NCBI RefSeq assembly: GCF_014170335.1
Contig: NZ_LZZS01000016.1
Location: forward strand, 1-64,000
Source of the DNA: Achromobacter sp. UMC46
Lineage (GTDB): Bacteria > Pseudomonadota > Gammaproteobacteria > Burkholderiales > Burkholderiaceae_B
Length of the DNA: 64,000 nucleotides
Direction of reading: 5' to 3'
Shown: one piece after another, positions 39,275 through 56,981 of the stretch
Layout: each line of letters opens with the position of its first letter
How positions within the stretch are numbered: position 1 is the first letter of the stretch
Notes under the pieces: generated by a model
Database searches by the model: none
The model's input: the letters and a program-made list of their open reading frames with translations, nothing else
Told to the model about the DNA's origin: nothing
Position numbers and translations under genes: made by a program

Positions 39275-40147
39275 TCAACCTCGCAGCGCCATCGCGCGTA
39301 GCAGCGCGTCAATCTGTCCGAACGCATCCTGCTGCCACTGTTCGGGCGTGCGGTCACCCAGCGCATGCGTGTCTTCGACGAAGCGCCTCACGCAGGTGGG
39401 TCCGTGCCCCTCGAAGACGTCGAACTTGTCGGCGATGTGGCGGAAACCGCGTTCGCCGCTTGCGTGCCCCAGGAGCGGGAGACATTCCTGCGCCAGCGCC
39501 TCGATGCCATCAGGGTAGTTCCGCACGCAGTAGTAGATGTCGTAGGCATCCTTCTGCTTGTAGCGGCCCGCCAGCGCATGGCCTTTCATTGCCAGCAGCG
39601 CAGGGATGGAGCACACCGCGATCTCCACGCGGTTGGTCCCTCCGTCCGGCATTGGGCCCGCCACCGCCACCAGTTGATAGAACCGCATCGCCAAGTCAGC
39701 GCCGTCGGCCCGTTGTACGGCAAAGTCGCTGATCAGGGGAGGGGTGTTCTTGACGATCTCCGCGTCGCGCGGCATCAGGAAATCGACCACGACGTCGATC
39801 GCCTCCCCGCCATCTCGCACGGGAACCTGGCGAACCAGTTGGAAGCGCCGAAGCCCGTCGCGTTGGGCGTATCCATGGCCTTGGAGCGCACCGATCAAGG
39901 TTGCGTACTCGCCGTCACCGAGTGCTTCCGCGTCCAGACCGACGTCCACATCGAGCGTGCCGACGTGGGGCATGTCCTCATTGGCCAGCAGCAGCCAGGG
40001 TACTGCACCGCCGATGATGGCGAACTTGCCTCTGAAGCTGCCAAGTATCTGGCCGATCTCGATCAGCACGGATTTCACTGCCGCGGTCGTGCGGTCGTCA
40101 TATTCGGAGGCCGATTGTGGTTCCTGGGGCGGTGTCATTGGGGCCAT
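39275..40147 (-). CDS. AbiEii-like nucleotidyltransferase toxin
   Basis: A 290-residue protein of the AbiEii/nucleotidyltransferase-fold toxin group. The polymerase-beta-type motif is visible as FAIIGGAVPWLL (Gly46-Gly47) followed by TLDVDVGL with the D-x-D pair Asp66 and Asp68; a later basic motif KGHALAGRYKQKDAYDIYYCVRN matches the family's RxKxKDxxD helix. Such toxins transfer nucleotides to tRNA or other targets and cause growth arrest. It overlaps its antitoxin gene by 13 nt. AAGGA lies 9 nt before the ATG at 40147; an ATG at 40138 overlapping the antitoxin stop as ATGA is the alternative. The actual target is unknown. Confidence 0.75.
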   Translation of the reverse strand: MAPMTPPQEPQSASEYDDRTTAAVKSVLIEIGQILGSFRGKFAIIGGAVPWLLLANEDMPHVGTLDVDVGLDAEALGDGEYATLIGALQGHGYAQRDGLRRFQLVRQVPVRDGGEAIDVVVDFLMPRDAEIVKNTPPLISDFAVQRADGADLAMRFYQLVAVAGPMPDGGTNRVEIAVCSIPALLAMKGHALAGRYKQKDAYDIYYCVRNYPDGIEALAQECLPLLGHASGERGFRHIADKFDVFEGHGPTCVRRFVEDTHALGDRTPEQWQQDAFGQIDALLRAMALRG

Positions 40148-41196
40148 GAAAGCTTTTCCTTGCGCAGGTGGTCGGCGGCCTCGGCGCCGCGTTCGCCGGC
40201 AATGGTGAGATCGAGGTAGGTCTGAACCGGGCTCGTGCAGACTGCGCCCGGCGCAGGTTCAATGGTGTCGGCGAACAATCCTGTGTCTTTCGGCACGGTG
40301 ATGACCACGTTCTCGCCCTTTGTGGCAGGCGCGAGCTTTAGCGCTGCCTGAAGCTTGCGCAGACCATCCTCGTCAGCGAAGAAGTAGTGCGTGCCGGTGC
40401 GGCCGTAGGGCGAAAGCCACTGCGCTGCCGAGAACGATGCGAAAGCGGCACGTCTGGGAGCATCGTCAGCGCGCAACGCGGTACGGGCCGCATCTTCGAA
40501 CGTGCTGCCATGCAGATGTGTGTAGAACCGCAGACGTTCACCCGGCGGTGCTGTGTAGCTGTCCCGCCATGCGTCCAACAGTGCATCGGGTTCTGAGAGG
40601 ACGAGACCGTCTTCCGAGGCGCGTGCCCATTCCCGATTAATCAAGCCGGTGCGCACATTGCTGACGTGCCCCAGGCTGACGCCGGAAATTGTCGACAACT
40701 CGGTGACGCGCCATGCACGGCCGGGCTCGCGCAGCATGACGCGCAGAACCTGAGCTGACTTTGGCCTAAACAGCGATTTGAGTTCGCGTTGTTCGGCCAC
40801 CGGTTTGTCCGCCACCATGCGCTCGATGAACACGCTGCCAAAAGCGATCCGGGCGTTGCCCTCTAGGTCGAGATAGCTGACGTCCTTCTCTTCGCACAAC
40901 CGTCTCACCGCGGGTGAGATGTAGGGGGCGATGAAGACAGGCGTCGCCTCGGGAGCTCGCTCCGCAATGTAGTTCCGTAGCTCCAGCAAGGCGGACCGGG
41001 CGTACCGCGGTTGCCCGTTCGATTTGTATTCGCAGATAAGTAGGTGCCGTTGGCCGTTGACGAGCAGCCGAGCGATCAAGTCCGGCTCCCAATCGCCGGA
41101 TACGGCTTCGGGTTCGATGCCTTCTATCTGAAGGACCGGGACCTTTTCAAGCGCCCGGCGCAGCGCCTCGCCAGCCCGAGCTTTCACATCTTTCAT
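40135..41196 (-). CDS. AbiEi-like antitoxin with an N-terminal PD-(D/E)XK-like domain and HTH
   Basis: A roughly 353-residue protein. Residues about 30-125 look like a restriction-endonuclease fold: WEPDL (Asp39), then ICEYKSNGQPR with Glu56-x-Lys58, then TPVFIAPYISPAVRRLCEEKDVSYLDLEG in pieces. A winged helix follows (about 150-205, VLRVMLREPGRAWRVTELSTISGVSLGHVSNV) and a C-terminal domain with SPVQTYLDLTIAG. This is the arrangement of COG4861/AbiEi-type type IV antitoxins, which repress their own promoter. An in-frame ATG at 41217 lies inside an operator palindrome, so I prefer 41196. It is coupled to the nucleotidyltransferase gene. Whether the nuclease-like domain is catalytic or only a DNA-binding relic is open. 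Confidence 0.72.
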   Translation of the reverse strand: MKDVKARAGEALRRALEKVPVLQIEGIEPEAVSGDWEPDLIARLLVNGQRHLLICEYKSNGQPRYARSALLELRNYIAERAPEATPVFIAPYISPAVRRLCEEKDVSYLDLEGNARIAFGSVFIERMVADKPVAEQRELKSLFRPKSAQVLRVMLREPGRAWRVTELSTISGVSLGHVSNVRTGLINREWARASEDGLVLSEPDALLDAWRDSYTAPPGERLRFYTHLHGSTFEDAARTALRADDAPRRAAFASFSAAQWLSPYGRTGTHYFFADEDGLRKLQAALKLAPATKGENVVITVPKDTGLFADTIEPAPGAVCTSPVQTYLDLTIAGERGAEAADHLRKEKLSWPQ

Positions 41197-41208
41197 TGAA
41201 TGATCATC

Positions 41209-41226
41209 TTTCAGCATCCGCTGAAA
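41209..41226. promoter_or_regulatory. Antitoxin operator copy 1
   Basis: TTTCAGC-ATCC-GCTGAAA, a perfect 7-bp inverted repeat with a 4-bp spacer. It abuts or overlaps the antitoxin start region. A second copy lies 67 bp upstream. Confidence 0.7.
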
Positions 41227-41416: not shown

Positions 41417-42211
41417 TCATGTTGATGCGTGCGCCGGTTTTGCCGCCTGCGTGGTGCCGGCATTGTCGGCGGCCTTCGCCGAACGTTTCTTCAATTCCAG
41501 GATGACCTGCCCGCCGGACAGGATGTCGGTCTGGACGGCGACCCGGGCTGCCTGACTGTCGCGGTTGCGCATCGCTGCAAGCAGGGAATAGTGGCCGTCG
41601 ATCATGTCGCGTCCGCCTGCCGTATAGCACTGGGCGATCAAGGGCCCCATCTTCAGCCATAGCCGTTCCAGGATGCTCAAGAGCACCGGCATGTTGGCGA
41701 TCCGACAGTACTCGAAATGGAAGTGCTGGTTCAGGCTGATGGCGGCCAGGACGTCGCCGGCGGCCAGCGCCTGTTCGTTCTGCTCGATCAGCGCTTCCAT
41801 GCGCGCGATGTCTTCGGCCGTGGCGACTTCGGCGGCCCGCGCGGCCGCCATGCCTTCGAGCTCCAGGCGGATGTCGCGGATTTCCAGGTATTCAGGCAGC
41901 GTGACGTCGGCCACCCGGATATCGCGCGCGCTGCGCATGGTCAGCGCGCCATCCTGTACCAGGCGCAGCACGCCGTCGCGCACGGGGGTGATGCTGGTGC
42001 CCAGCTCTGCCGCCAGCTCCCGGATACGCAGCCGGTCTCCCGGCCTGAGCTGGCCTTCCATCAGGGCGCTGCAGATTTTGGTGTAGACCCGCTTGCCCAT
42101 GCTTTCGTACTGCATGGCCGAAAAGCGCGCCTCTGTCTGCGGCAGGGGCAGCGACGGCTCGGGCGCTTCTGGGATAGGGTCGGAATGAGGGCTTGCGCTC
42201 GGATGATGCAT
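41417..42211 (-). CDS. GntR-family (FadR/FCD subfamily) transcriptional regulator
   Basis: A regulator of about 264 residues: an extended Pro-rich N-terminus, a winged helix (about 50-105, GKRVYTKICSALMEGQLRPGDRLRI ... LGTSITPVRDGVLRLVQDGAL) and an all-helical FCD domain (LPEYLEIRDIRLELEGMAAARAAEVA ... NQHFHFEYCRIANMPVLL with the metal-binding His). It is divergent from the kinase/aminotransferase/ABC operon and probably represses it. Start choice is uncertain: GTG 42244, ATG 42211 (inside a TGATGCATCA palindrome) or ATG 42115. Homologues starting close to the HTH would favour 42115. Confidence 0.87.
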   Translation of the reverse strand: MHHPSASPHSDPIPEAPEPSLPLPQTEARFSAMQYESMGKRVYTKICSALMEGQLRPGDRLRIRELAAELGTSITPVRDGVLRLVQDGALTMRSARDIRVADVTLPEYLEIRDIRLELEGMAAARAAEVATAEDIARMEALIEQNEQALAAGDVLAAISLNQHFHFEYCRIANMPVLLSILERLWLKMGPLIAQCYTAGGRDMIDGHYSLLAAMRNRDSQAARVAVQTDILSGGQVILELKKRSAKAADNAGTTQAAKPAHAST

Positions 42212-42213
42212 CA
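42204..42213. promoter_or_regulatory. GntR operator copy at the regulator gene
   Basis: TGATGCATCA, a perfect 10-bp palindrome of the FadR-type (TG...CA) kind. It is repeated at the other end of the intergenic region before the kinase operon, suggesting autoregulation by the GntR protein. Confidence 0.6.
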
Positions 42214-42389
42214 AAGTACGTGCCAAGAGTCTGAAGGTCGCCACGGAAAAGTCGGTCCGGGCGGGCGGATATCGGGCGTGCTGCCCACACCCTACTTTAT
42301 CAGCCTTATAGGCGAAACCGACGGGCGGGGCCGGTTTTCCGGGATTTTGGCGCCTCCGGGATTACACCGATATCGTGATTTTTGTTTCC

Positions 42390-42406
42390 TGATGCATGAT
42401 GCATCA
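42390..42406. promoter_or_regulatory. GntR operator copy before the kinase operon
   Basis: TGATGCATGATGCATCA is a perfect 17-bp palindrome containing the same TGATGCATCA core (42397-42406) plus an overlapping second half. It lies 25 bp before the chosen kinase start and would block the operon promoter when bound. Confidence 0.65.
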
Positions 42407-42431
42407 AATATCTAAACCAGGATGTGTCGTG

Positions 42432-43538
42432 ATGCTGTCGAATGCCGCCGCCGGGATGGAAGAGCCGGTGGATGCCCTGCTGGTGAATTCGCCGCCGCCG
42501 ATCCGGCTCAAGGATGCGGAACGCGTCGCCGGCGCCTGCTACCCCGGTTACGTGCAGTGCGCCCCGTTGTCGGGCGAGCGCGACATGAATTTCCGGATCA
42601 GCCGGGCGGACGGCGAGTCGCTGACGCTGAAGTTCATCAACGGCGCGGAAAGCCTGGATGAAACGCGCATGCAGATCGCGGTGCTCAAGCACCTGGAAGC
42701 GCGCAGGCGCGGCATGGGCCCGGTGCGGGCGCCGCACCACCAGCCGGCCGACGCGGCCGGACTGACAACTGAGTATTCGGATATCAGGCCGGGTTGCGAC
42801 GATGGCTCGTCGGCCCAGGATTGGCTGGATTTTCATGTGCCGGACGTTGCCGGCCCTGTGCGGGTGCGCGCCTATGGCTACCTGCTCGGCCAGACGGGAA
42901 CGGCCATGTCGGCCGGGCCGCAGTCCTGGCACGCCGTGGGCCGAGCGGCAGCGCAGCTGGATGCGCAGCTTGCAGACTTCGAACATCCGGCGGCGCACCG
43001 CGTGTTCCTGTGGGATGCCTGTCAGGTGGCGCGCGTGCGGCCGATGCTGGGAGCGGTCGATTCCGCAGACGAACGGGGGCGCATCGCCGCCTATCTGGAC
43101 GTGTTCGAGCAGGACGTCATGCCTGCGTTGGCGGCGTTGCCCTGCCAGATCATCCACAACGATCTGTCGCCCAGCAACATCCTGGTCAATGCGGCCGGCA
43201 CGGACCTGGCGGGCATTCTGGACTTTGGCGACATGGTCCATGCGCCGCGGATCGCCGAGATAGCCATCGCCGCCTCCTACCAGATGACGGCTACCGGCAA
43301 TCCCCTGGACGTGCTGTCGGCCGTCGTGGCGGGTTACGAGTCGGTGTCTCCGCTGACGCCGCAAGAGCGGCGCCATGTGCTGGATCTGGTGTTGGCGCGG
43401 CTGGTGCAGCGCATGGCGATTCCGTCTTGGCGCGCTTTGCGTTTTCCCGGCAATGGCGCCTACATCCTGCGCAGCCGGGCGGCGGCGACGGCGTTGTTCA
43501 ACGAGCTGTACGACGAATGGAGCCAGGGCGCCCGTTGA
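42432..43538 (+). CDS. APH-type kinase, hydroxylysine-kinase-like
   Basis: A 368-residue aminoglycoside-phosphotransferase-fold small-molecule kinase. Visible motifs: GERDMNFRI and LTLKFIN (nucleotide lysine about residue 67), the Brenner motif IIHNDLSPSNILV (about 240-252) and ILDFGDMVHAPRIAEIA (metal Asp in DFGD, about 264-267). It begins an operon and is followed by an AGXT2L-type PLP enzyme. In mammals the same enzyme pair (HYKK and PHYKPL) degrades 5-hydroxylysine. The ATG at 42432 has AGGA 10 nt upstream; an earlier ATG (42396) lies inside the operator. Hydroxylysine as substrate is inference; another amino alcohol is possible. Confidence 0.8.
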   Translation: MLSNAAAGMEEPVDALLVNSPPPIRLKDAERVAGACYPGYVQCAPLSGERDMNFRISRADGESLTLKFINGAESLDETRMQIAVLKHLEARRRGMGPVRAPHHQPADAAGLTTEYSDIRPGCDDGSSAQDWLDFHVPDVAGPVRVRAYGYLLGQTGTAMSAGPQSWHAVGRAAAQLDAQLADFEHPAAHRVFLWDACQVARVRPMLGAVDSADERGRIAAYLDVFEQDVMPALAALPCQIIHNDLSPSNILVNAAGTDLAGILDFGDMVHAPRIAEIAIAASYQMTATGNPLDVLSAVVAGYESVSPLTPQERRHVLDLVLARLVQRMAIPSWRALRFPGNGAYILRSRAAATALFNELYDEWSQGAR

Positions 43539-43594
43539 GCGCGTCCTGCATGGAACTGCGCGTCGCCGCGCACGAATCGAACGAAGGACATGCG

Positions 43595-44875
43595 ATGACA
43601 GTAAACCGCAACGAGGCGCAGCAAGACTTGTTGGCGCGGCGCAAGGCGCTGGGGCCGGCCTACCGGTTGTTCTACGAAGAGCCGGTGGAGCTGGTGCGCG
43701 GCGAGGGCGTGTGGCTGTACGACGCCTCGGGACGCCGCTATCTGGACGCCTACAACAACGTGCCCGTGGTCGGGCATGCCAATCCCGCCGTGGTGGAGGC
43801 GCTATCGCGCCAGGCATCCGTGCTGAATACGCATACGCGGTATCTGCACGAGGGCGTGGTGCATTACGCCGAGCGTTTGCTGGCGCTGTTTCCGGATGCG
43901 CTGGACACCGCCATGTTCACCTGCACGGGCAGCGAGGCCAATGACCTGGCGCTGCGCATCGCCTTCGAGGCGACGGGGCGGCGGGGCGTGATCATCACCG
44001 AGAATGCCTATCACGGCGTGACGATGGCGCTGGCCGACGTGTCGCCGTCGCTGCGTCCCGTCGGGGCGCACGTCCGAACGATACCGGCGCCTTGCCTTCT
44101 GAAGGGTACGCCGCACGAGGTCGCGGCGAAATTCGCCGCCTGCGTGGATGCAGCGGCCGATGAGCTGGAAGCCGCCGGCACGCCTGTGGCCGCGTTGATG
44201 GTCGACACCGTGTTCGCCAGCGACGGCATGTATGCCGACCCCAGCGAAGCGCTGACGCTGGCGGCCGAACGCGTGCGCGCCCGCGGTGGCCTGTTCGTCG
44301 CTGACGAAGTGCAGGGCGGCTTTGCGCGGATGGGCGCCAACTGGTGGGCTTTCCAGCGCGATAGCGTGATCCCGGACATGGTGTCCATGGGCAAGCCCAT
44401 GGGCAACGGCCATCCGATCGGCGGCCTGGTCGTGCAGTCGCGCCTGGCAGAGGTCTTCGGCCTGCAGTGCCGCTATTTCAATACCTTCGGGGGCAACACG
44501 GTGTCGTCGGCCGTCGGCCTGGCCGTGCTGGACGAGCTGGCGCGCATGGATGCGCCAGCCCACGTCGAGCGCACCGGCCAGGTCATGGCGCAAGTGCTGG
44601 ACGATCTGGCGCAGCGCCACGATTGCCTGGGGCCGGTGCGCGGGCAAGGCCTGTACTGGGGTGTCGACATCGTCGCGCCCGATGGGGATGCGGCGCATGC
44701 CGCTCGCCTGACCCAACGGATCGTCAATGGCTTGCGCCAGTCCGGCGTGCTGCTCGGCACGGCTGGCCGGCAGGCTTCTACGCTCAAGATCCGTCCGCCG
44801 CTGGTGTTCCAGCCCGAGCATGCCGGCATCCTGGCGCAAGCCCTGGACGAGCAGTGCCGCGCGGCGATGCGCTGA
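43595..44875 (+). CDS. Class III PLP enzyme of the AGXT2L type (likely phospho-lyase)
   Basis: A 426-residue fold-type I PLP enzyme. It shows NTHTRYLHEGVVHYAERL, TCTGSEANDLALRIA, NAYHGVT, VADEVQGGFARMG (Asp237 under the PLP nitrogen) and SMGKPMGNGHPIGG (Schiff-base Lys267), then VRGQGLYWGVDIV. The RYLH and MGKPMGNGHP stretches are typical of ethanolamine-phosphate and phosphohydroxylysine phospho-lyases (ETNPPL, PHYKPL) rather than ordinary transaminases. With the kinase gene 56 bp upstream, phosphorylation followed by elimination of phosphate and ammonia is the simplest model. AAGGA precedes the ATG at 43595. A true aminotransferase activity is not excluded. Confidence 0.85.
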   Translation: MTVNRNEAQQDLLARRKALGPAYRLFYEEPVELVRGEGVWLYDASGRRYLDAYNNVPVVGHANPAVVEALSRQASVLNTHTRYLHEGVVHYAERLLALFPDALDTAMFTCTGSEANDLALRIAFEATGRRGVIITENAYHGVTMALADVSPSLRPVGAHVRTIPAPCLLKGTPHEVAAKFAACVDAAADELEAAGTPVAALMVDTVFASDGMYADPSEALTLAAERVRARGGLFVADEVQGGFARMGANWWAFQRDSVIPDMVSMGKPMGNGHPIGGLVVQSRLAEVFGLQCRYFNTFGGNTVSSAVGLAVLDELARMDAPAHVERTGQVMAQVLDDLAQRHDCLGPVRGQGLYWGVDIVAPDGDAAHAARLTQRIVNGLRQSGVLLGTAGRQASTLKIRPPLVFQPEHAGILAQALDEQCRAAMR

Positions 44876-44960
44876 GCGGCCAACAAGACAACCACACAAC
44901 AAGACGCTTCATAAGAAGACCGGTCCCACCCCACCACGTCGAACAAGCAAGGGAATCCTC

Positions 44961-46553
44961 ATGCGCAACACTATGTTCTTCAGAAAAACGGCACTGCATG
45001 TCCTGCTGGCGGGCGCAGCTGCCATCGGCGCAGGCGCGTCGGCCATGGCGCAGACGCATGGCGGCACGCTTAACGTCATCCTGAATCCCGAGCCACCCGT
45101 CCTGATGCTGGGCCTGAACCAGCAGACGCCCACCCAGATCGTCGGCGGCAAGATCTACGAGAGCCTGCTGACCTATGACTTCAAGCTCAATCCCCAGGCC
45201 AGCCTTGCCAAGTCGTGGACCGTTTCGCCCGATGGCCTGACCTATACCTTCGAGCTGCAGGAAGGCGTGACCTGGCACGACGGCAAGCCGTTCGGCGCCG
45301 ACGATGTGCTGTTCTCACTCAAGGAATACCTGCCCGAGGTGCACGCGCGAGCGCGCAACAACCTCAGCCATGTGGCGAACATCGAGAAGACCGGGCCGCT
45401 CACGGTCGTCATTACGCTTAAAGAGCCGTACTCGCCGTTCATCAACGCCTTTGAGGTGTCGTCCGCGCCGATTGTGCCGGCGCACATATACAAAGGCACA
45501 GACTTCCGCAACAACCCGGCCAACCAGACGCCGATCGGCACCGGGCCGTTCAAGTTCAAGGAATGGCAGCGCGGCCGCTTTGTGCTGCTGGAGCGCAACG
45601 ACAAGTACTGGCGTCCCAACCTGCCGTACCTGGACAAGATCTATTTCCAGGTGATTCCGGACGCCAATTCGCGCCTGGTCGCCCTGGAAAGCGGCTCGGT
45701 GCAGGTGGCCAGCTTTGGCGACATCGATTTCGCTTTCCTGCCGCAGATCAAGGCCAACCCGCAGTTGGAGGTCACGACCCAGGGGTACGAGTTCACCGGC
45801 TCGCACGCCGCGATCGAACTCAACCACCGCACCAAACCGATGGACGACGCGCGTTTCCGCCAGGCCATCCAGTACGCCATCGACCGCAAGTTCATCGCCG
45901 AGCGAATTTTCTTCGGCGCCGCGCGCCCGGCCACGGGCCCGGTGTCGTCGGTGACGCGCTTCTACGACGACAAGCTTCCGCGCTACGACTACGACCCGAA
46001 GAAGGCCATTGCGCTGCTCGACGAAATGGGCCTGAAGCCGGATGCCAGCGGCAAGCGCGCCAGCATCAAACTGCTGGGCCTGCCCTATGGCGATACCTGG
46101 AACAAGGTGTCCGAGTACGTCAAGAGTTCGCTGTCCAAAGTCGGGGTGGACGTCGTGCTGGAAAACACCGACGCGGGCAGCTGGGCGCGCCGCTACTCCA
46201 ACTGGGAGTTCGATGCCGTGGTCGAGTACCTGTACCAGTACTCGGATCCGGCGCTGGGCGTGGATCGTACCTATCGTTCGGACAATATCCACAAGGGCGG
46301 CTACGGCACCAACACGTCGGGCTATGTGAACAAGGACGTGGACGCCGCGCTGATCGCCGCCGCGAAGGAAGTCGACCCGGTCAAGCGCCAGCAGCTCTAT
46401 TCGCAGGCCTACGGCCAGGTCGCCAAGGATGCGCCGACCGCCTGGCTGGTCGAACTGGCGTTCCCCACCATCACCAACAAGAAGGTCAAGAACGTGACGA
46501 CGTCCGCCATCGGCGTGGCGGAAAGCTTCGCGACGACCTACATCGAGAAGTAA
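44961..46553 (+). CDS. ABC transporter substrate-binding protein, family 5 (peptide/nickel type)
   Basis: A 530-residue periplasmic binding protein with a signal peptide (MRNTMFFRKTALHVLLAGAAA, cleavage near SAMAQT). SBP family 5 marks: GKIYESLLTYDF, LAKSWTVSPDGLTYTFELQEGVTWHDGKPF, DDVLFSLK, PIGTGPFKFKEWQRG and DARFRQAIQYAIDR. It is followed by its two permeases and a double ATPase, making a complete importer. Family members bind oligopeptides, opines, nickel chelates or other amines; the operon suggests a hydroxylated or acylated amine or peptide. Confidence 0.92.
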   Translation: MRNTMFFRKTALHVLLAGAAAIGAGASAMAQTHGGTLNVILNPEPPVLMLGLNQQTPTQIVGGKIYESLLTYDFKLNPQASLAKSWTVSPDGLTYTFELQEGVTWHDGKPFGADDVLFSLKEYLPEVHARARNNLSHVANIEKTGPLTVVITLKEPYSPFINAFEVSSAPIVPAHIYKGTDFRNNPANQTPIGTGPFKFKEWQRGRFVLLERNDKYWRPNLPYLDKIYFQVIPDANSRLVALESGSVQVASFGDIDFAFLPQIKANPQLEVTTQGYEFTGSHAAIELNHRTKPMDDARFRQAIQYAIDRKFIAERIFFGAARPATGPVSSVTRFYDDKLPRYDYDPKKAIALLDEMGLKPDASGKRASIKLLGLPYGDTWNKVSEYVKSSLSKVGVDVVLENTDAGSWARRYSNWEFDAVVEYLYQYSDPALGVDRTYRSDNIHKGGYGTNTSGYVNKDVDAALIAAAKEVDPVKRQQLYSQAYGQVAKDAPTAWLVELAFPTITNKKVKNVTTSAIGVAESFATTYIEK

Positions 46554-46566
46554 GAGGGGAAACCGC

Positions 46567-47547
46567 ATGATGAGGTGGCTGCGGCCCTTACTTTCCGTGC
46601 TGGGCAAATCGGTCACGGTGCTGGTCGCAGTCGCGGTCATCAACTTTGCCCTGGTGCACATGGCGCCCGGCGACCCGGTCAGCGTGCTGGCCGGCGAAGC
46701 CGGATCGTCAGACGCGAAGTTCCTGGAACAGTTGCGCCAGGAGTTCAAGCTCGATCAACCCCTGGTGGTGCAGCTGGGAAGCTACCTGCAATCCATCGCC
46801 ACGCTGGATCTGGGATACAGCTACCGGCAGCAACGCCCCGTCTGGGACATGATCGCCGACCGCTTGCCGGCCACGCTGGTGCTGGCGATCCCGGCTTTCC
46901 TCATCGCCCTGCTGGGCGGGATCCTGCTGGGGGCGCTGGCCAGCCGCTACCGGGGAAGGTGGCTGGACTCGGTCATCACCGCGGCGTCGCTGGCGTTCTA
47001 CGCGACGCCCATCTTCTGGGTCGGATTACTGCTGGTGCTGGGGTTCTCGGTCAGCCTGGGATGGTTGCCGGCGTTCGGCTACGAGACCATGGGTTCGTCG
47101 CTGACGGGCGTGCCGCGCATGCTGGACATCGCCAAGCACGCCCTGTTGCCCATCGTCACGCTTGCGGGCTTCAACCTGGCAGTCTATACCCGTCTGGCGC
47201 GGGCCTCCATGAACGAGATACAGGGCGCCGATTTCGTCAAGACGGCGTGGGCCAAGGGCCTGTCGTCGGGCCGGGTGGTGTGGGTGCACCAGCTGCGCAA
47301 CGCCGTGCTGCCCGTCATAACGCTTGCCGGCATGCAGGCGGGCCAACTGATCGGCGGCTCGGTGCTGGTGGAAACCGTGTTCGCCTGGCCGGGCATCGGC
47401 CGGCTGGCCTTCGACGCACTGCAGCAGCGCGACTATCCCGTCCTGCTGGGGGTGTTTTTCTGCACGTCGGTGGTGGTGGTGGCGTTCAACCTGCTTACTG
47501 ACCTGATCTACCGCGTCGTCGATCCTCGCATGCAGAGTCAATCATGA
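46567..47547 (+). CDS. ABC transporter permease, DppB type
   Basis: A 326-residue inner-membrane permease with six hydrophobic helices. N-terminal SVTVLVAVAVINFALVHMAPGDPV and the coupling motif segment YTRLARASMNEIQGADFVKTAWAKGLSSGRVVWVHQLRNAVLP in pieces mark the BPD_transp_1 / DppB family. It follows the binding protein by 13 bp and overlaps the second permease by 4 nt (ATGA). Confidence 0.92.
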   Translation: MMRWLRPLLSVLGKSVTVLVAVAVINFALVHMAPGDPVSVLAGEAGSSDAKFLEQLRQEFKLDQPLVVQLGSYLQSIATLDLGYSYRQQRPVWDMIADRLPATLVLAIPAFLIALLGGILLGALASRYRGRWLDSVITAASLAFYATPIFWVGLLLVLGFSVSLGWLPAFGYETMGSSLTGVPRMLDIAKHALLPIVTLAGFNLAVYTRLARASMNEIQGADFVKTAWAKGLSSGRVVWVHQLRNAVLPVITLAGMQAGQLIGGSVLVETVFAWPGIGRLAFDALQQRDYPVLLGVFFCTSVVVVAFNLLTDLIYRVVDPRMQSQS

Positions 47548-48380
47548 AGTCATTGATCAAGCGATATTTCAGCAATGCCGGTGCGGTGGTGGGGCTGGTC
47601 TGCCTGACCGCCATCGTGCTGATGGCCCTGGGCGCCCAGTGGCTCTATCCGATCAACCCCTGGGACGCCACCGAAGCGCCGTTCCTGCATCCGTTCGAGC
47701 AGGCCGGCGCCTGGTTGGGGGCCGACTCCATGGGCCGCAATATCGCAGCGGGCATCGTGCATGGCGCGCAGGCCTCGCTGCTCGTGGGCGTGGTGGCGAC
47801 CGTGGTCGCGGTGTTCATCGGCATGCTGGTGGGCGTGCCGGCCGGTTACCTGGGCGGGCGCTGGGACGAGCTGCTGATGCGCGTGACCGAGATCTTCCAG
47901 ACCATCCCCAGCTTTCTGTTCGCCATTGTGCTGGTGGCCATATTCCAGCCCTCTTTCGGTTCGGTGATTACCGCCGTGGCGCTGGTGAGCTGGCCGCCGA
48001 TCGCCCGGCTGGTGCGCGCCGAATTCATGCGGGTCAAGTCCAGCGAGTTCGTCGAGGCCGCCACGGTGCAGGGCTATTCGCGCACCCACATCGTGTTTGC
48101 CGAAATCCTGCCGAACTGCGTGTCGCCGCTGATCGTCATGGCTTCGCTAATGGTGGCCAACGCCATCCTGCTGGAAAGCGCGATCAGCTTTCTGGGCCTG
48201 GGCGATCCCAACCTGATGACCTGGGGATACATGGTGGGCGCCTCGCGCACCTTCCTGCGCCTGGCCTGGTGGATGTGCCTGTTCCCGGGCGTGGCGATCT
48301 TCGTCACCGTGTTGGCGGTCAACCTGATGGGAGAGGGGCTCAATGATGCGCTCAATCCCCGTCTCCATCGCAAGGGGTGA
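47544..48380 (+). CDS. ABC transporter permease, DppC type
   Basis: A 278-residue inner-membrane permease partner of the DppB-type protein. Typical marks: GADSMGRNIAAGIVHGAQASLLVG, GVPAGYLGGRWDELLMRVTEIFQTIPSFL in pieces, RAEFMRVKSSEFVEAATVQG (EAA loop) and ESAISFLGLGDPNLMTWGYM. It overlaps the upstream permease by 4 nt and the ATPase gene follows after 3 bp. Confidence 0.92.
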   Translation: MKSLIKRYFSNAGAVVGLVCLTAIVLMALGAQWLYPINPWDATEAPFLHPFEQAGAWLGADSMGRNIAAGIVHGAQASLLVGVVATVVAVFIGMLVGVPAGYLGGRWDELLMRVTEIFQTIPSFLFAIVLVAIFQPSFGSVITAVALVSWPPIARLVRAEFMRVKSSEFVEAATVQGYSRTHIVFAEILPNCVSPLIVMASLMVANAILLESAISFLGLGDPNLMTWGYMVGASRTFLRLAWWMCLFPGVAIFVTVLAVNLMGEGLNDALNPRLHRKG

Positions 48381-48383
48381 GCC

Positions 48384-49982
48384 GTGGCGTCGTTGCTTCA
48401 GATTGAAAACCTGTCAATCTCACTGCCGGCGGGCGGAGACCGCGCGTTGGCGGTGGATGGCGTCAGCCTTGCCCTGAATCCGCGCGAAATCGTGTGCGTG
48501 GTGGGCGAGTCCGGGTCGGGCAAGTCCACGTTGGCGCATGCCGTGCTTGGCCTCTTGCCGCGCGGCCTGCGGATCGCCGGCGGCGATATCCGGCTGGGCG
48601 AGCTGCAGCTGGCCGGCATGCCGCTGGGCGAGCTGCGCCGCGTGCGCGGCAAGCGCATTGCCATGGTGTTCCAGGAACCGCTCAGCGCGCTCAACCCGCT
48701 GATGCGCTGCGGCCGCCAGATCGGCGAAATGTTGCGCACGCACGGCATGCGCGATGCCGCCCGGGTGAATGCGCGTGTCGCCGAGCTGCTGACCTCGGTT
48801 GGCCTGCCAGACCATGCCCGCATCGTCGATTCCTATCCCTACCAACTGTCGGGCGGACAACGCCAGCGCGTCATGATCGCCATGGCCCTGGCGCTGGAGC
48901 CCGACATCCTGATCGCCGACGAGCCGACCACGGCGCTGGACGTCACCACCCAGGCGCAGATACTGGCCCTGATCAAGGACATCCAGCAACGCAAGGGATT
49001 GGCCGTGCTGTTCATCACGCACGATTTTGGCGTGGTCTCGGAAATCGCCGACCGCATCGTCGTGATGCAGGGCGGCCGCGTGATCGAGTCCGGCTCGGCG
49101 CAGCAGGTGCTGCGCGATCCCCAGCAGGCATACACGCAGTCGTTGCTGGCGGCCGTGCCGTCGTTTCGGCCACCGCCCGCCGGAAAGGTTCAGGCCGACG
49201 CCTTGCTGACGGTAAAGAACCTGCGCAAGACGTATGTGCGCAAGGGCAAGTGGTTCGGCCCGGCCCAGCAGTTCCCGGCAGTCAAGGGCGTGTCATTCGA
49301 TATCCGGCGCGGCGAGACGGTGGGGCTGGTGGGCGAGTCCGGTTCGGGCAAGTCGACCATCGGCCGCATGCTGGCGGGTCTGGTGTCCGTCGACGATGGC
49401 GAAGTGCGGTTGCGCGGGGCCGACATGCTGGCAGACGGCGCGTTCGCCGACCCGGCACGGCGCCGTTCGGTGCAGATGATCTTCCAGGACCCGTATGGGT
49501 CGCTCAACCCCCGCCATACCGTGGCGCGCATCCTGACCGGCGGCATGCGCCGGCACGGCATGTCGGCCAGCGCGGCGATGGACAGGGCGCGCGAACTGAT
49601 GCAACTGGTCAAGCTGGATCCGTCCGCGCTGGATCGTTATCCCCATGAGTTTTCGGGGGGGCAGCGCCAGCGCCTGGGCTTTGCGCGCGCCATCGCGGTG
49701 ACGCCCGAGCTGATCGTGGCGGACGAACCTGTGTCGGCGCTGGACGTATCGGTGCAGGACCAGGTACTGGCCATGCTGCGCCAACTGAAGCATGAGCTGC
49801 ATCTTTCCATGCTCTTCATCACACACGATCTGCGCGTGGCCTCCCAGTTGTGCGACCGCGTCATCGTGCTCAAGCATGGCGAAATCGTCGAGCAGGGTTT
49901 GACCGCCCAGGTCCTGGAAAATCCGCAGCACGAGTACACCCGCGAACTGATCGCCGCGGTGCCCGGAAGAAGCTGGAAATAA
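48384..49982 (+). CDS. ABC transporter ATP-binding protein with two fused ATPase domains (DppD-DppF type)
   Basis: A 532-residue protein carrying two complete ATPase domains. Domain 1 (about 1-265): [48 protein letters not shown]. Domain 2 (about 275-530): [53 protein letters not shown]. It energises the import of the family 5 substrate. The GTG start lies 3 bp after the permease stop. Confidence 0.93.
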
Positions 49983-50012
49983 ACACACCCACACGCTTTA
50001 TAGGATCGCGCA

Positions 50013-51056
50013 GTGAAAGCATTCATCTCCCCGACCCATGACGTGCCCTGGCCTGGCAACGCCATGATCCGTGGGCTGCTCAAGCAGCACCACGATCGCG
50101 CCGAACGCAGCATCGAAATCCTTGCCGCGCTGAAGGACGACCTGCGCCTGGATTGCCAGTTCGTGCACCGCGCCGCCGAACGCCCCGCCGAATTGTTCGA
50201 AGTCCATGCCCCGGACTATCTGCACTATCTGGAAACCGCCTGGGACGAATGGTCCAAGGCGCCGGATGCGTCATTCGAAGTGCGGCCCTACATCACGACG
50301 AACCGCTATTTCCCCACGTTGCGCACGCAGATCCCGGTGACGCTCGCCGGCCGCTACCTGGGCGACGGCGGTTCGCCATTGGTCCAGGACGCCTGGGCCA
50401 ATATGAACGGCAGCGTCGACGCCGCAGTGGCGGCCGCCGACGCGATCATCGCGGGCGAACGCAGCGCCTATGCGCTGTTGCGGCCCGCGGGCCATCACGC
50501 CATGCGCGACCTGGCGATGGGCGGCTGCCACATCGCGAACACGGCGATCGCCGCGCAGCGCCTGGCCAAGCGGTTTGGCCGCGTGGCCGTGCTGGATATC
50601 GACGTGCATCACGGCAACGGCACGCAGCAGATCTTCTACGACCGCGACGACGTGTTGACCGTGTCGCTGCACGGAAAGCCCGAAACGCTATTTCCATTCA
50701 TCTGCGGCTATGCCGACGAGATTGGAAGCGGCGCCGGCGAAGGTTACAACTGCAATCTGCCCATGGAAGGCGGCACGGCGATCAGCGGCTACCTTGGCTA
50801 CTTCGACCATGCCCTTGAACGGATCAAGGATTTCGCACCGGGCGTGCTGGTGGTGGCGGCGGGCTTCGACACGTTCCGCCACGATCCGTTCGGCAACCTG
50901 GACATCGACACTGCCGACTACGCGGTACTGGGCGACCGAATCGCCCAGCTTGGCCTGCCGACCCTGTTCGTTCAGGAAGGGGGCTACAAGGTCGATACGC
51001 TGCGCGCCAACGTCAACTCGCTGGTCGAAGGCTATCTGAAACGCCAGGGAACCTAG
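50013..51056 (+). CDS. Histone-deacetylase-family amidohydrolase (acetylpolyamine amidohydrolase type)
   Basis: A 347-residue zinc amidohydrolase, close in length to the Mycoplana acetylpolyamine amidohydrolase. All catalytic parts are visible: RPAGHHA (His161-His162), LDIDVHHGNGTQQIFY (zinc Asp197 and His199), AGFDTFRHDP (zinc Asp286) and QEGGY (transition-state Tyr325). These bacterial enzymes remove acetyl groups from polyamines or other N-acetyl amines. It follows the importer genes by 30 bp and begins with GTG. In context it probably deacylates the imported amine before the kinase acts. Confidence 0.9.
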   Translation: MKAFISPTHDVPWPGNAMIRGLLKQHHDRAERSIEILAALKDDLRLDCQFVHRAAERPAELFEVHAPDYLHYLETAWDEWSKAPDASFEVRPYITTNRYFPTLRTQIPVTLAGRYLGDGGSPLVQDAWANMNGSVDAAVAAADAIIAGERSAYALLRPAGHHAMRDLAMGGCHIANTAIAAQRLAKRFGRVAVLDIDVHHGNGTQQIFYDRDDVLTVSLHGKPETLFPFICGYADEIGSGAGEGYNCNLPMEGGTAISGYLGYFDHALERIKDFAPGVLVVAAGFDTFRHDPFGNLDIDTADYAVLGDRIAQLGLPTLFVQEGGYKVDTLRANVNSLVEGYLKRQGT

Positions 51057-51058
51057 AC

Positions 51059-51781
51059 ATGACGACTGCTGAACGCGAGGCGGGCGAGGGCCGTGTGGTG
51101 CTTATCAGCGGCGCCAGCCGGGGCATCGGGCTTGCCCTGGCGCGTGAACTGCTGGCGCACGGCTGGCGGGTGTCGGCGGGAACACGCCAGCCGGTGGCGG
51201 CGTTGGCGGAGTATGGGGCGGATCGTTGCCACGGATCGCCCTTCGATGCGCGGGATCCGGCAAGTGAAGCGGCCTGGGTGGCCGCGGCGCACGGCCATTT
51301 CGGGCGAATCGACGCGATCGTCCACAACGCCGGCATCCTGAGCGGCAAGTCCGTGATCGAGGCGAGCGACGAGGACTTCGACGATATCTTCGCCGTCAAC
51401 GTCAAGTCGCCCATGCGCCTTACCCGGCTGGTGTGGCCGCATTTGCAGGCCGCTCCCGAGGGCCGCGTGCTGGTGATTGCCTCGCTGGCCGGCAAGCGCG
51501 TGCGGGCGGCGGAAGGCGGGCTGTATTCCATGAGCAAGGCCGCCGCGCTGATGCTGGCCCACGGAATCCGCCATGCGGGCGAAGGGGATCGGATCCGCTG
51601 TACGGCGATCTGTCCGGGCTTTGTTGCCACCGACATGGCCGACGGCGTGGACGACTCCGTCAAAGCGCAATTGACCCAGCCCCAGGAAGTGGCCCGGATC
51701 GCCCGGATGGCGCTGGAGCTTCCCGCCACGGCCAGCGTGGCGGAAATACCGATCAGCTGGCGGGTGGAAACGGCATTTTGA
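51059..51781 (+). CDS. SDR-family oxidoreductase (kinase/deacetylase operon)
   Basis: A 240-residue classical SDR: VVLISGASRGIGLALARELL (cofactor glycine motif), VHNAGILSG, IASLAGKR and the active-site YSMSKAAALMLAH (Tyr-x-x-x-Lys). It lies 2 bp after the amidohydrolase gene and is the last gene of the operon. It could oxidise or reduce the semialdehyde or hydroxyl product of the phospho-lyase step; that is inference. Confidence 0.9.
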   Translation: MTTAEREAGEGRVVLISGASRGIGLALARELLAHGWRVSAGTRQPVAALAEYGADRCHGSPFDARDPASEAAWVAAAHGHFGRIDAIVHNAGILSGKSVIEASDEDFDDIFAVNVKSPMRLTRLVWPHLQAAPEGRVLVIASLAGKRVRAAEGGLYSMSKAAALMLAHGIRHAGEGDRIRCTAICPGFVATDMADGVDDSVKAQLTQPQEVARIARMALELPATASVAEIPISWRVETAF

Positions 51782-51853: not shown

Positions 51854-52897
51854 ATGCGCTATTCCGACTTCGATCATCGCCTTGCCGCACTCGGCGCCCG
51901 GCCCGTCCATCGCGGCCGGATCGTGCGCGTCTGGCTGAACGGGCAAGCGCTCGACACCGGCACGCGGCGGCGGAGTTCAGAGGACTTTCTGCCGCTGTCG
52001 CTGCGCAATGCGCTGCCCGCCTTGACGGCGGAGCTGGACGGCCTGGCCGGTATCCGCTCTGAACATGCCGGCAACGACGGCACGCGCCTGCTCGTCGAGC
52101 TTGCCGATGGGCAGATGGTGGAAAGCGTGCTGCTGCCGCGTGACGGCCTTTGCGTTTCGTCTCAGGTCGGCTGCGCGGTGGGCTGTCGTTTCTGCATGAC
52201 CGGCAAGAGCGGCCTGATCCGTCAGGTATCAAGCATGGAGATCCTTGCCCAGGTCGTGCTGGCACGGCGTCTGGGCTCCGTGAAGAAAGTCGTCTTCATG
52301 GGCATGGGCGAACCGGCGCACAACCTGGAAAACGTGCTCGAAGCGATCGACCTGCTTGGCACCGAAGGCAATATCGGCCACAAGAACCTGGTGCTCTCCA
52401 CGGTGGGCGATCTGCGCGTGTTCGAGGCCCTGCCGCAGCAACGCGTCAAACCCGCCCTGGCGCTGTCGCTGCACTCGACCAAGGCCGAGTTGCGTGAACA
52501 CCTGTTGCCGCGCGCGCCGAAAATCGCGCCGGCAGACCTTATCGAGCTTGGCGAAAAGTACGCCCGCGACACCGGATACCCGATCCAATACCAGTGGACG
52601 CTGCTCAAGGGCGTCAACGATGGCCACGACGAACTCGACGCCGTCCTGCGGCTGCTCAAGGGCAAGTACTGCGTCCTCAACGTCATCCCGTTCAATAGTC
52701 TTGAGGGCGACGACTATCAACGCCCCGATCCAGAGCGTATCCGCGAGATCGTCCACTACCTCCATAGCCGCGGATTGTTGACCAAGGTAAGGAACAGCGC
52801 CGGGCAGGATGTGGATGGCGGCTGCGGGCAGTTGCGCGCCCGGGCCATCGGCACAACGCAGGTCGTCGCGCTGCACCGCCAGCGTGCGGCGGTGTAG
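51854..52897 (+). CDS. Radical-SAM RNA methyltransferase, RlmN-like
   Basis: A 347-residue RlmN/Cfr-family enzyme. It has the 4Fe-4S motif CAVGCRFC (Cys107, Cys111, Cys114), the conserved LCVSSQVGC (Cys100), GMGEPAHN, LSLHSTKAELR and the methyl-carrying cysteine region DVDGGCGQL (about Cys324). RlmN methylates A2503 of 23S rRNA and A37 of some tRNAs. It lacks about 37 residues compared with E. coli RlmN and is not next to ndk, pilF or ispG as the usual rlmN is, so this may be a second, specialised paralogue. It is followed by panB. Confidence 0.85.
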   Translation: MRYSDFDHRLAALGARPVHRGRIVRVWLNGQALDTGTRRRSSEDFLPLSLRNALPALTAELDGLAGIRSEHAGNDGTRLLVELADGQMVESVLLPRDGLCVSSQVGCAVGCRFCMTGKSGLIRQVSSMEILAQVVLARRLGSVKKVVFMGMGEPAHNLENVLEAIDLLGTEGNIGHKNLVLSTVGDLRVFEALPQQRVKPALALSLHSTKAELREHLLPRAPKIAPADLIELGEKYARDTGYPIQYQWTLLKGVNDGHDELDAVLRLLKGKYCVLNVIPFNSLEGDDYQRPDPERIREIVHYLHSRGLLTKVRNSAGQDVDGGCGQLRARAIGTTQVVALHRQRAAV

Positions 52898-54804: not shown

Positions 54805-56025
54805 ATGTTGTCAATGCCACGCAGGTTGTCCGGCGCCGCGATTGTTTGCGGCGCGGCCGTTACGCTCAGCGCGGGTGTTGCGCATGCGCAGATTTCCGAC
54901 GATGTCATTCGAATCGGATTCATCACCGACATGTCCGGCGTCTATTCCGGCCCCGACGGCCCCGGCGGGGCCGAGGCCATCAAGATGGCGATCGAGGAAA
55001 TGGGCGGCGAGATCAACGGCAAGAAGATCGAGCTGCTGACAGCCGACCATCAGAACAAGGCGGACATCGCCTCGGCCAAGGCGCGCGAGTGGTTCGACCA
55101 GAAGGGCCTGGACATGCTGATCGGCGGCACCAATTCCAGCACGGCGCTTGCCATGTCGAAGGTGGCGGCCGACAAGAAGAAGCCGATCATCGTGGTGGGC
55201 GCGGGCGCTCCGGCGCTGACGAACGAGCAATGCACGCCCTATACCCTGAACTACGCCTACGACACGGTCGCGCAGGCGCGCGGCACGGGGGCCGCAGTGG
55301 TCAAGGCGGGCGGCAAGAGCTGGTACTTCCTGACCGCCGACTACGCCTTCGGCAATGCGCTGCAGGCCGACACCACGAAGGTGGTCGAGGCGGCGGGCGG
55401 CAAGGTGGTGGGGTCGGTCAAGCATCCGCTGGCGTCCAGCGATTTCTCGTCCTTCCTGCTGCAAGCGCAAAGCAGCAAGGCGGAAATCCTGGCCCTGGCT
55501 AACGCCGGTGCCGACGCGACCAACGCGATCAAGGCGGCCAACGAATTCGGCATTACGAAGACGATGCGGCTGGCTGGGCTGATCATGTTCATCAACGATA
55601 TCCATGCCATGGGCCTGGATGCGGCGCAGGGGCTGTACCTGACCGACAGCTGGTATTGGAACGCGTCGGATGAGACGCGCGCATGGAGCCAGAAGTTCTT
55701 CGAACGGCGCAAGGCCATGCCGTCGTCGCTGCAGGCGGCGGACTATTCGGCGGCGTTGCAGTATCTGCGCGCCGTCAAGGCCACCGGCACCGATGACGCC
55801 GACCGCGTGTTGGCGCATATGCGCGAAAACAAGCTGAACGACCTGTACATCAAGGACGGCGTCGTCCGTCCGGACGGCCGGGTGGTGCACGACATGTATC
55901 TGCTTCAGGTCAAGACGCCCGCCGAATCGAAGGCGCCCTGGGACTATTTCAACGTGGTGCAGACCATCGACGGCAACGAGGCCTTCACGGCCAAGGCGGA
56001 AAGTCGGTGCGCGCTGTGGAAGTAA
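54805..56025 (+). CDS. LivJ-like ABC substrate-binding protein
   Basis: A 406-residue periplasmic binding protein of the branched-chain amino-acid/amide family, with a signal peptide (MLSMPRRLSGAAIVCGAAVT, cleavage near VAHAQI). Fold marks: IRIGFITDMSGVYSGPDGPGG in pieces, GKKIELLTADHQNKADIASAKAREW in pieces, GGTNSSTALAMSKVAADKKKPIIVVGAGAPAL in pieces and SWYFLTADYAFG. No permease or ATPase genes follow. AGAGGAG lies 7 nt before the ATG. It heads an operon with a BKACE enzyme and an SDR and may feed their substrate to a transporter elsewhere. Confidence 0.9.
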   Translation: MLSMPRRLSGAAIVCGAAVTLSAGVAHAQISDDVIRIGFITDMSGVYSGPDGPGGAEAIKMAIEEMGGEINGKKIELLTADHQNKADIASAKAREWFDQKGLDMLIGGTNSSTALAMSKVAADKKKPIIVVGAGAPALTNEQCTPYTLNYAYDTVAQARGTGAAVVKAGGKSWYFLTADYAFGNALQADTTKVVEAAGGKVVGSVKHPLASSDFSSFLLQAQSSKAEILALANAGADATNAIKAANEFGITKTMRLAGLIMFINDIHAMGLDAAQGLYLTDSWYWNASDETRAWSQKFFERRKAMPSSLQAADYSAALQYLRAVKATGTDDADRVLAHMRENKLNDLYIKDGVVRPDGRVVHDMYLLQVKTPAESKAPWDYFNVVQTIDGNEAFTAKAESRCALWK

Positions 56026-56034
56026 GGAGAACCC

Positions 56035-56949
56035 ATGTCTAAACGCAAAGTCATCGTGACCATCGCCCCGACGGGGGGCATGGCGCTGAAAAGCCAGAAC
56101 CCGCATCTGCCGACGCAGCCCGCGGAAATCGCCGAAGACGTATACCGGTGCTACAACGCCGGGGCCAGCGTGGTGGCTCTGCACGCGCGCCGGCCCGACG
56201 ACCTGGCCACCTGCAACGCCGATATCTACCGCGACATGAACCGGCGCATCCGCGACCGTTGCGACATCGTCCTGAATAATTCCACGGGCGGGGGCGTGCA
56301 TGGCGACATGGTCAAGGAAACGTCGCCGGGCACCTGGGAGATCCTGTGGGAAGAGCGGCTGAAAGGCATGGATGCGGGCGCCGAGATGTGCACGTTGGAC
56401 GCCACCACGCTGAACCTGGCCTTCGGCGACCGCGAATACCTGATGAACACGCCGCTGACCCGTGCGCGCGAGATGGCGGCCGCCATGCAGGCCCGCGGCA
56501 TCAAGCCGGAGTGGGAGGTGTTCAGCCCGACGCACATCCTGCAGGATGCGACGACGCTCATCAACGAGGGCCTGGACGAAGCGCCGCATTTCATCAACCT
56601 GGTGATGAACGTGCACCGGAATTTCCAGAACGCCATGCCGTTCTCGCCCCGGCATCTGCAGATGATGGTCGACCTGCTGCCGAAGAACAGCATTTTCTGC
56701 GTCAGCGGCATCGGGCCGGCGCAGCTTGAAGCCAACATCAGCGCGTTGCTGCTGGGCGGGCACGCGCGGGTGGGCCTGGAAGACAACCTTTACTACCGTC
56801 ATGGTGAGTTGGCCACCAACGTCCAGCTGACCGAACGCATCGTCCGCGTGATCCGGGAAATGGACATGGAGCCCGCCACTCCGGCCGAAGCGCGCGAGAT
56901 GCTGGGCCTGCCGCTGCAGAGCGGCATCCGGCCGGCGTTCGCGCTCTGA
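56035..56949 (+). CDS. BKACE-family beta-keto acid cleavage enzyme (DUF849)
   Basis: A 304-residue TIM-barrel enzyme of the 3-keto-5-aminohexanoate cleavage (Kce) superfamily, which converts a beta-keto acid and acetyl-CoA into acetoacetate and a CoA ester. Features: VIVTIAPTGGM, QPAEIAEDVYRCYNAGASVVALHARRPDD in pieces, NNSTGGG and GHARVGLEDNLYY (zinc/catalytic Glu). The usual zinc pair H-x-H reads A-L-H here (Ala48, His50). The gene is 9 bp after the binding protein, with AAGGAGA before the ATG. The keto acid is unknown. Confidence 0.9.
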   Translation: MSKRKVIVTIAPTGGMALKSQNPHLPTQPAEIAEDVYRCYNAGASVVALHARRPDDLATCNADIYRDMNRRIRDRCDIVLNNSTGGGVHGDMVKETSPGTWEILWEERLKGMDAGAEMCTLDATTLNLAFGDREYLMNTPLTRAREMAAAMQARGIKPEWEVFSPTHILQDATTLINEGLDEAPHFINLVMNVHRNFQNAMPFSPRHLQMMVDLLPKNSIFCVSGIGPAQLEANISALLLGGHARVGLEDNLYYRHGELATNVQLTERIVRVIREMDMEPATPAEAREMLGLPLQSGIRPAFAL

Positions 56950-56981
56950 CCCGGCTTCCGAACCTATATCGACAAAGCGAC

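Follow-up and report, generated by a model that had tools for sequence, protein, structure and literature searches.

A candidate catabolic operon for an N-acylated or peptide-bound hydroxy-amine in Achromobacter sp. UMC46

The mammalian hydroxylysine kinase HYKK and the ammoniophospholyases PHYKPL and ETNPPL, whose pathway was reportedly set out in a 2012 paper, combine an APH-like kinase with class-III phospholyases in a system without operon-type transport or deacylation steps. In bacteria, the Rhodococcus and Mycobacterium microcompartment (RMM) loci feature a phosphotransferase, an aminotransferase, a short-chain dehydrogenase/reductase (SDR), an amino-acid permease and a GntR regulator, and the available part of the source reports that amino-2-propanol induces the SDR via the GntR protein (PMC4207490). 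PA0321 and PA1409 enable Pseudomonas aeruginosa to grow on acetylputrescine and acetylcadaverine, as stated in the accessible portion of PMC4784309, and PbfA, a (R)-1-hydroxy-2-aminoethylphosphonate ammonia-lyase, is described in an excerpt of PMC8154272 as a class-III lyase that works by elimination and requires no kinase. The window analysed here is a 64,000-nucleotide stretch of Achromobacter sp. UMC46 (contig NZ_LZZS01000016.1, positions 1 to 64,000). It features eight plus-strand genes at 42432–51781 that encode an APH-fold kinase, a class-III pyridoxal phosphate (PLP) enzyme, a Dpp-type ABC importer, an HDAC-fold amidohydrolase (the deacetylase) and an SDR, with a divergent GntR/FCD regulator gene. 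The sequence itself shows the gene set, the families of its proteins, their catalytic residues, and a gene order and operator-like sites that are both conserved. Together these suggest that the operon is inducible and serves the catabolism of a cationic hydroxy-amine in N-acylated or peptide-bound form, with a probability of about 0.6.

The unit resembles the RMM amino-2-propanol loci, as far as the available excerpt of PMC4207490 describes them, in joining a kinase, a PLP enzyme, an SDR and a GntR protein. It differs in featuring an HDAC-fold amidohydrolase and a peptide-type importer, and neither microcompartment shell genes nor an aldehyde dehydrogenase were found among the 17 genes scanned between 37 kb and 58 kb (two genes there were left out). 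The first-pass annotation of this DNA knew of no bacterial pathway that joins all of these genes. That claim holds in part: the kinase/PLP/SDR/GntR amino-alcohol core is already known from the same excerpt, and the link of this core to a deacetylase and a peptide-type importer appears to be the new part. No description of the kinase-PLP pair combined with an HDAC-type deacetylase and a peptide-type importer was found in the open PubMed Central literature.

All eight genes are unbroken and closely spaced, with gaps ranging from a 4-bp overlap to 85 bp, and the domains named in the first-pass annotation were found in all eight open frames. The PLP enzyme matches the phospholyase 5g4i (the Paenarthrobacter protein A1RDF1) with 386.9 bits over residues 8–418 and human ETNPPL (ethanolamine-phosphate phospho-lyase, 6tor) with 304.4 bits, whereas the next-ranked solved class-III chain, dialkylglycine decarboxylase, scores 153.4 bits. 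Twelve alignment columns are shared by at least 97% of 87 family rows and by both phospholyases, and by none of four other class-III enzymes from the same genome (0/4); the PLP lysine, K267, is invariant across the family rows. A quick tree of 91 rows, built without the near-copies L024, L026–L028 and others (L numbers denote individual loci), splits the window enzyme, both phospholyases and the kinase-linked relatives (87 rows) from the four own-genome enzymes with a Shimodaira-Hasegawa-like approximate likelihood ratio test (SH-aLRT) value of 99. Long branches are flagged in this tree, which leaves the position of the two phospholyases unsure; A1RDF1 shares the signature columns, yet it has a long branch of its own, apart from the kinase-linked rows. 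The PLP enzyme scores only 156 bits against the NCBIfam model of PbfA (cut-off 525). Because of the score gap, the tree split and the twelve phospholyase-shared columns, phosphate elimination is the likely reaction, and the comparison places the enzyme with the phospholyases rather than with ordinary omega-transaminases, in agreement with the earlier AGXT2L-type assignment.

The predicted kinase model (pLDDT, the predicted local distance difference test, 89.2) gives APH-fold matches to solved chains, compared with VIA-align 2 over Foldseek's top chains, and the catalytic residues H254, D256, N261 and D276–G278 (HxDxxxxN and DFG motifs) are invariant in 21/21 aligned relatives. A profile search placed the aminopropanol kinase 6ef6 at the top of the solved sequence matches, whereas a single-sequence search against solved structures found no match at E 0.001. 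The top named relatives, from A. marplatensis and A. agilis, are 91% identical, and some homologues carry the label hydroxylysine kinase in their sources, which is a label only. The kinase start is the ATG at 42432, in a reading frame already open from 42396. An aminoglycoside resistance role was considered for the kinase, and the gene context gives it no support.

The first-pass annotation likened the first two genes to the mammalian pair. In 87 surveyed loci the kinase gene lies next to the PLP gene (a count made, like the near/far comparison below, without six loci that lack an adjacent kinase-PLP call and without L127–L130 and L132), both proteins match one fused NCBIfam model, and in L089 they form a single 804-aa frame. 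An ordinary transaminase pathway, with the PLP enzyme acting as an omega-transaminase and the kinase acting on something else, e.g. an antibiotic, is very improbable: the families are broad (PF00202 and PF01636) and the fold matches of the kinase include amicoumacin kinases and APHs, but the phospholyase signature, the score gap, the conserved pairing and a shared operator argue against it.

Recurrence was surveyed by tblastn in the best 80 of 520 named kinase loci; where loci lacked annotation, genes were called with a home-made codon-usage predictor, and their borders are approximate. All eight genes in the same order were found in 11/80 loci (8 Achromobacter, 2 Paenalcaligenes and 1 Alcaligenaceae), the lowest kinase identity being 45%, and relatives that carry a window-type set keep the genes together. 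Because of these 11 loci, the comparison indicates that the order is beyond chance. At 1e-20 the kinase is matched in 17/36 genus relatives, of which 7 are of the window type (84–91% identical in four, 56–58% in three), and in 0/24 sampled genomes from elsewhere in the taxonomic order. Kinase, PLP enzyme, deacetylase and importer are united in three arrangements, the window type and two other gene orders. In the second Achromobacter type, deacetylase, kinase and PLP genes are contiguous in 6 of 15 distant loci (L009–L023), and this set adjoins a Dpp-type importer in L090, L105 and L108. The alphaproteobacterial type, found in 9 loci (Chelatococcus, Bosea, Pararhodobacter and Microvirga), mostly features an importer, a thiamine pyrophosphate enzyme or an aldehyde dehydrogenase, and an M20 hydrolase.

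The three top solved matches of the deacetylase are all named acetylpolyamine amido- or aminohydrolases, Marinobacter 6phr and Pseudomonas PA0321 and PA1409, at 256.6, 241.7 and 228.4 bits. Residues H161, H162, D197, H199, D286 and Y325 are identical in 31/31 aligned rows, and by analogy with HDACs they are presumably the metal ligands and catalytic residues. Unlike those matches, the window enzyme is coupled to a kinase and a phospholyase. An HDAC-fold gene accompanies the kinase-PLP pair in 22/80 loci, and L089, L111 and the plasmid L167 each have two deacetylases. At the deacetylase's place, other loci feature another amide hydrolase, of the ArgE/DapE type in L104 (the second pair of the same genome), L106, L107, L131 and L079, an amidase in L093 and L100, and a nitrilase type in L032. 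Among 53 groups of similar kinases, an amide hydrolase is in the gene run in 17, nearby in 3 and absent in 33, and the deacetylase label needs 6 changes on the PLP tree, 2 of which are forced by starred branches. The second pair, L104, lies on another contig (7305–11007) directly behind an ArgE/DapE-type deacylase; its PLP enzyme is 55% identical, and the locus also has a MocR-type regulator and a major facilitator superfamily transporter.

The regulator has relatives, 54–97% identical, at the equal place in the clade-A loci, and its true start is likely Met44, at 42115. In the regulator/kinase regions first compared, 16/16 hold ATGATGCATCA on one strand, and the 6.68-Mb genome holds three DTGATGCATCAH sites, two of them in the window at 42203 and 42396. 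TGATGCATCA is present in 32/80 loci, and every one of them has a site upstream of the kinase at a distance of no more than 3 kb. Seven further palindromes occurred in 0 to 5 loci, and upstream of the kinase in 0 or 1. Of 46 TGATGCATCA sites, 45 lie outside predicted genes, though predicted genes cover 82% of the sequence, and the motif occurs in 30/35 loci with a regulator at least 42% identical vs 2 of the remaining 45. It was derived on 16 regions, 14 of which are within the 80 loci; outside the derivation set 18/66 loci have it, including L027 and L037, which are close relatives of the first set. In the Rahnella locus L169 it stands before a Pot-type binding protein, before the SDR-kinase-PLP genes and before the regulator, and in L109 it stands between the kinase and a divergent Pot-type importer; in L172 a single site inside the kinase gene was not counted. 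Flanking the regulator/kinase gap, TGATGCATCA is a probable operator, from which the GntR protein may repress. The exact 12-mer is found in 66/369 genomes class-wide, and at 30 three-kb loci around such sites no kinase or GntR relative was found (tblastn 1e-8); the motif alone is therefore not diagnostic. Further genes under the regulator were sought in the same genome and no further member was found; the third site is inside a 500-aa frame on another contig that presumably resembles a type VI secretion sheath protein.

The substrate class is suggested by related loci. The window PLP enzyme belongs to a 17-row clade (SH-aLRT 99) with L071, L085, L040, L109, L032, Comamonas and Paenalcaligenes. 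L109 features an SDR, an aldehyde dehydrogenase and a PotABCD-type importer (PotA 372 bits, cut-off 355.6). L071 features a glutaryl-CoA dehydrogenase (609 bits to solved ones), a relative of glutarate CoA-transferase that overlaps the kinase (586 bits, below the cut-off of 750) and a Pot-type importer, whose binding protein is 45–75% identical to those of L084, L095, L098 and L109. Nine of 87 plasmid records were inspected. A Rahnella plasmid has a γ-aminobutyrate (GABA) transaminase (above cut-off) with a Pot-type importer, and this importer type is also present on plasmids of Aureimonas AU20 and Burkholderia multivorans. Because related pairs have polyamine- or basic-amino-acid-type importers, a GABA transaminase or glutarate genes as neighbours, the comparison favours a cationic, lysine- or diamine-like hydroxy-amine, imported N-acylated or peptide-bound. 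Candidates would be 5-hydroxylysine or a hydroxy-diamine (2-hydroxyputrescine or 2-hydroxycadaverine); elimination would yield allysine, 4-aminobutanal and 5-aminopentanal from these three, respectively.

Among other plasmid-borne pairs, L172, on a Klebsiella plasmid of conjugative type, has the kinase-PLP pair, a GntR gene, a lysine/arginine/ornithine-type importer and an EamA transporter; the record also carries yersiniabactin genes, and Klebsiella makes up 36/87 plasmid matches. In L173, on a Variovorax plasmid, the pair lies behind hydantoinase/oxoprolinase-type genes and before an AMP-binding protein. In L079 (8748–9794), an agmatinase-like gene (195 bits vs an NCBIfam cut-off of 174) stands beside the pair and two hydrolases of the M20 type, a hint that guanidino hydroxy-amines may be involved.

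We infer each reaction, the reaction order, the direction of transport and the repression as follows. The Dpp-type importer would take up the conjugate, and the HDAC-fold amidohydrolase would cleave the amide to give the free amine. The kinase would phosphorylate the hydroxyl adjoining the amino carbon, and the PLP enzyme would then eliminate phosphate and ammonia to give an aldehyde. The SDR would probably act on the hydroxyl/ketone state of the amine, as does the SDR of the amino-propanol loci, or else reduce the product aldehyde. The GntR protein would repress from the two TGATGCATCA sites until substrate or an intermediate binds. This follows the uptake-deacylation-phosphorylation-elimination scheme of the first-pass annotation, which holds up as a scheme: its sequence of steps is coherent, and the kinase-PLP pair recurs with an importer and a deacetylase or another amide hydrolase.

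Several observations weigh against this scheme. No aldehyde dehydrogenase is in the operon. In the accessible part of PMC11532494, where acetylpolyamine amidohydrolases form cluster 4, the gate motif of bacterial polyamine deacetylases is PIS, whereas the window enzyme has PFG at 292–294; a plain acetylpolyamine substrate is therefore not assured, and the enzyme is classed as ApaH-like only. Amide hydrolases number 28/509 among genes near the pair vs 1/531 far from it (p 2.4e-8), a contrast that is biased because the families were chosen from the near hits and near-copies were kept; the HDAC family alone gives 9/509 vs 1/531 (p 0.0099). The 200-bp gap rule in these counts missed the L033 deacetylase. 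The exact operator is missing from the Aureimonas loci that carry glutarate genes, the Rhodobacteraceae loci adjoin ureide genes, and L056, L066, L088 and L168 have the pair with an SDR, a sugar-type importer and a propanediol/glycerol-type diol dehydratase. In the same PLP clade, L085 features a sugar-type importer, an FGGY kinase and a glycerol-3-phosphate dehydrogenase. No deacetylase is beside the pair in 58/80 kinase loci, and L128 of the same genome (1061–9973) features an M20 hydrolase, a Dpp-type importer, an HDAC-fold enzyme and an EamA transporter without the pair. These last two points would suit a separate module of deacetylase and importer that scavenges acetyl-diamines or peptides and is merely co-located with an independent hydroxy-amine pair. 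Such a module is quite improbable, given the one order of all eight genes in 11 loci and the reunion of the same enzymes in a different order in alphaproteobacteria and in further Achromobacter clusters, where the deacetylases are 40–45% identical.

A shell-less version of RMM amino-alcohol catabolism, in which an N-acyl ethanolamine or 1-amino-2-propanol would be converted to acetaldehyde or propanal, is an unlikely explanation. It draws on the kinase profile's match to 6ef6, on the ethanolamine-phosphate lyase 6tor and on the phosphotransferase, aminotransferase, SDR and GntR of the RMM loci (available part of PMC4207490), and the glycerol-type genes of L085 might suit glycerophospho-ethanolamine. 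However, products of two or three carbons do not match the importers of polyamine and basic-amino-acid type, the GABA transaminase or the glutarate genes beside related pairs, and the deacetylase is nearest to polyamine deacetylases. For the cationic hydroxy-amine reading, a wider form is put forward tentatively: a widespread, undescribed route of Proteobacteria may pass a conjugate-derived hydroxy-diamine or hydroxylysine from an HDAC-fold deacylase to the kinase and phospholyase, which would take off its hydroxyl and amine together, with GntR-TGATGCATCA control kept from Achromobacter to Rahnella and Azospirillum. If true, bacterial hydroxylysine-kinase-like proteins, for the most part labelled phosphotransferases, would gain a concrete role, an HDAC-fold enzyme would gain a small-molecule substrate, and the operator would serve to recognise related operons. 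The ranked substrate list is short and directly testable.

Table 1. Coordinates of the operon genes, the regulator and the probable operator sites in the window.
Feature	Coordinates	Strand	Basis
GntR/FCD transcriptional regulator, divergent from operon	41417..42244	-	Pfam FCD and GntR above cut-off
Probable operator site 1, ATGATGCATCAA	42203..42214	.	motif comparison
Probable operator site 2, ATGATGCATCAA, 25 bp from its end to kinase ATG	42396..42407	.	motif comparison
APH-fold small-molecule kinase, hydroxylysine-kinase-like	42432..43538	+	Pfam APH 67.8 bits
Class-III PLP enzyme, phospholyase kind	43595..44875	+	PF00202 212 bits
Family-5 (peptide type) solute-binding protein	44961..46553	+	Pfam SBP_bac_5 307.9 bits
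ABC permease, Dpp/Opp type	46567..47547	+	Pfam/NCBIfam profile matches
ABC permease, Dpp/Opp type	47544..48380	+	Pfam/NCBIfam profile matches
Double ABC ATPase, Dpp/Opp type	48384..49982	+	two ABC_tran stretches
HDAC-fold amidohydrolase, nearest acetylpolyamine amidohydrolases	50013..51056	+	profile, structure-sequence and alignment matches
SDR	51059..51781	+	Pfam adh_short 145.4 bits

The top NCBIfam model of the solute-binding protein is GsiB, at 193.5 bits, which is below the GsiB cut-off. The Rhodobacteraceae-type pairs are those of L041, L044, L046, L048, L050, L058, L072 and L096, and the loci checked have a ureidoglycolate lyase, an allantoinase/OHCU decarboxylase or a xanthine-type permease as neighbours. 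Purine/ureide, diol and glycerol contexts were rejected as a general role, being confined to other branches or single loci. An RlmN/Cfr-like RNA methyltransferase of the PRK14464 type (51854–52897; 609 bits, cut-off 422) begins 72 bp past the SDR; it is probably outside the operon unit, because among the 80 loci such a gene follows the SDR in L024 only. On the minus strand, 39275–41217 features two overlapping frames of 290 and 360 aa with zero Pfam matches at 1e-5. At 54805–57758, genes for a binding protein, a beta-keto acid cleavage enzyme and an SDR follow in succession and are likely another catabolic set.

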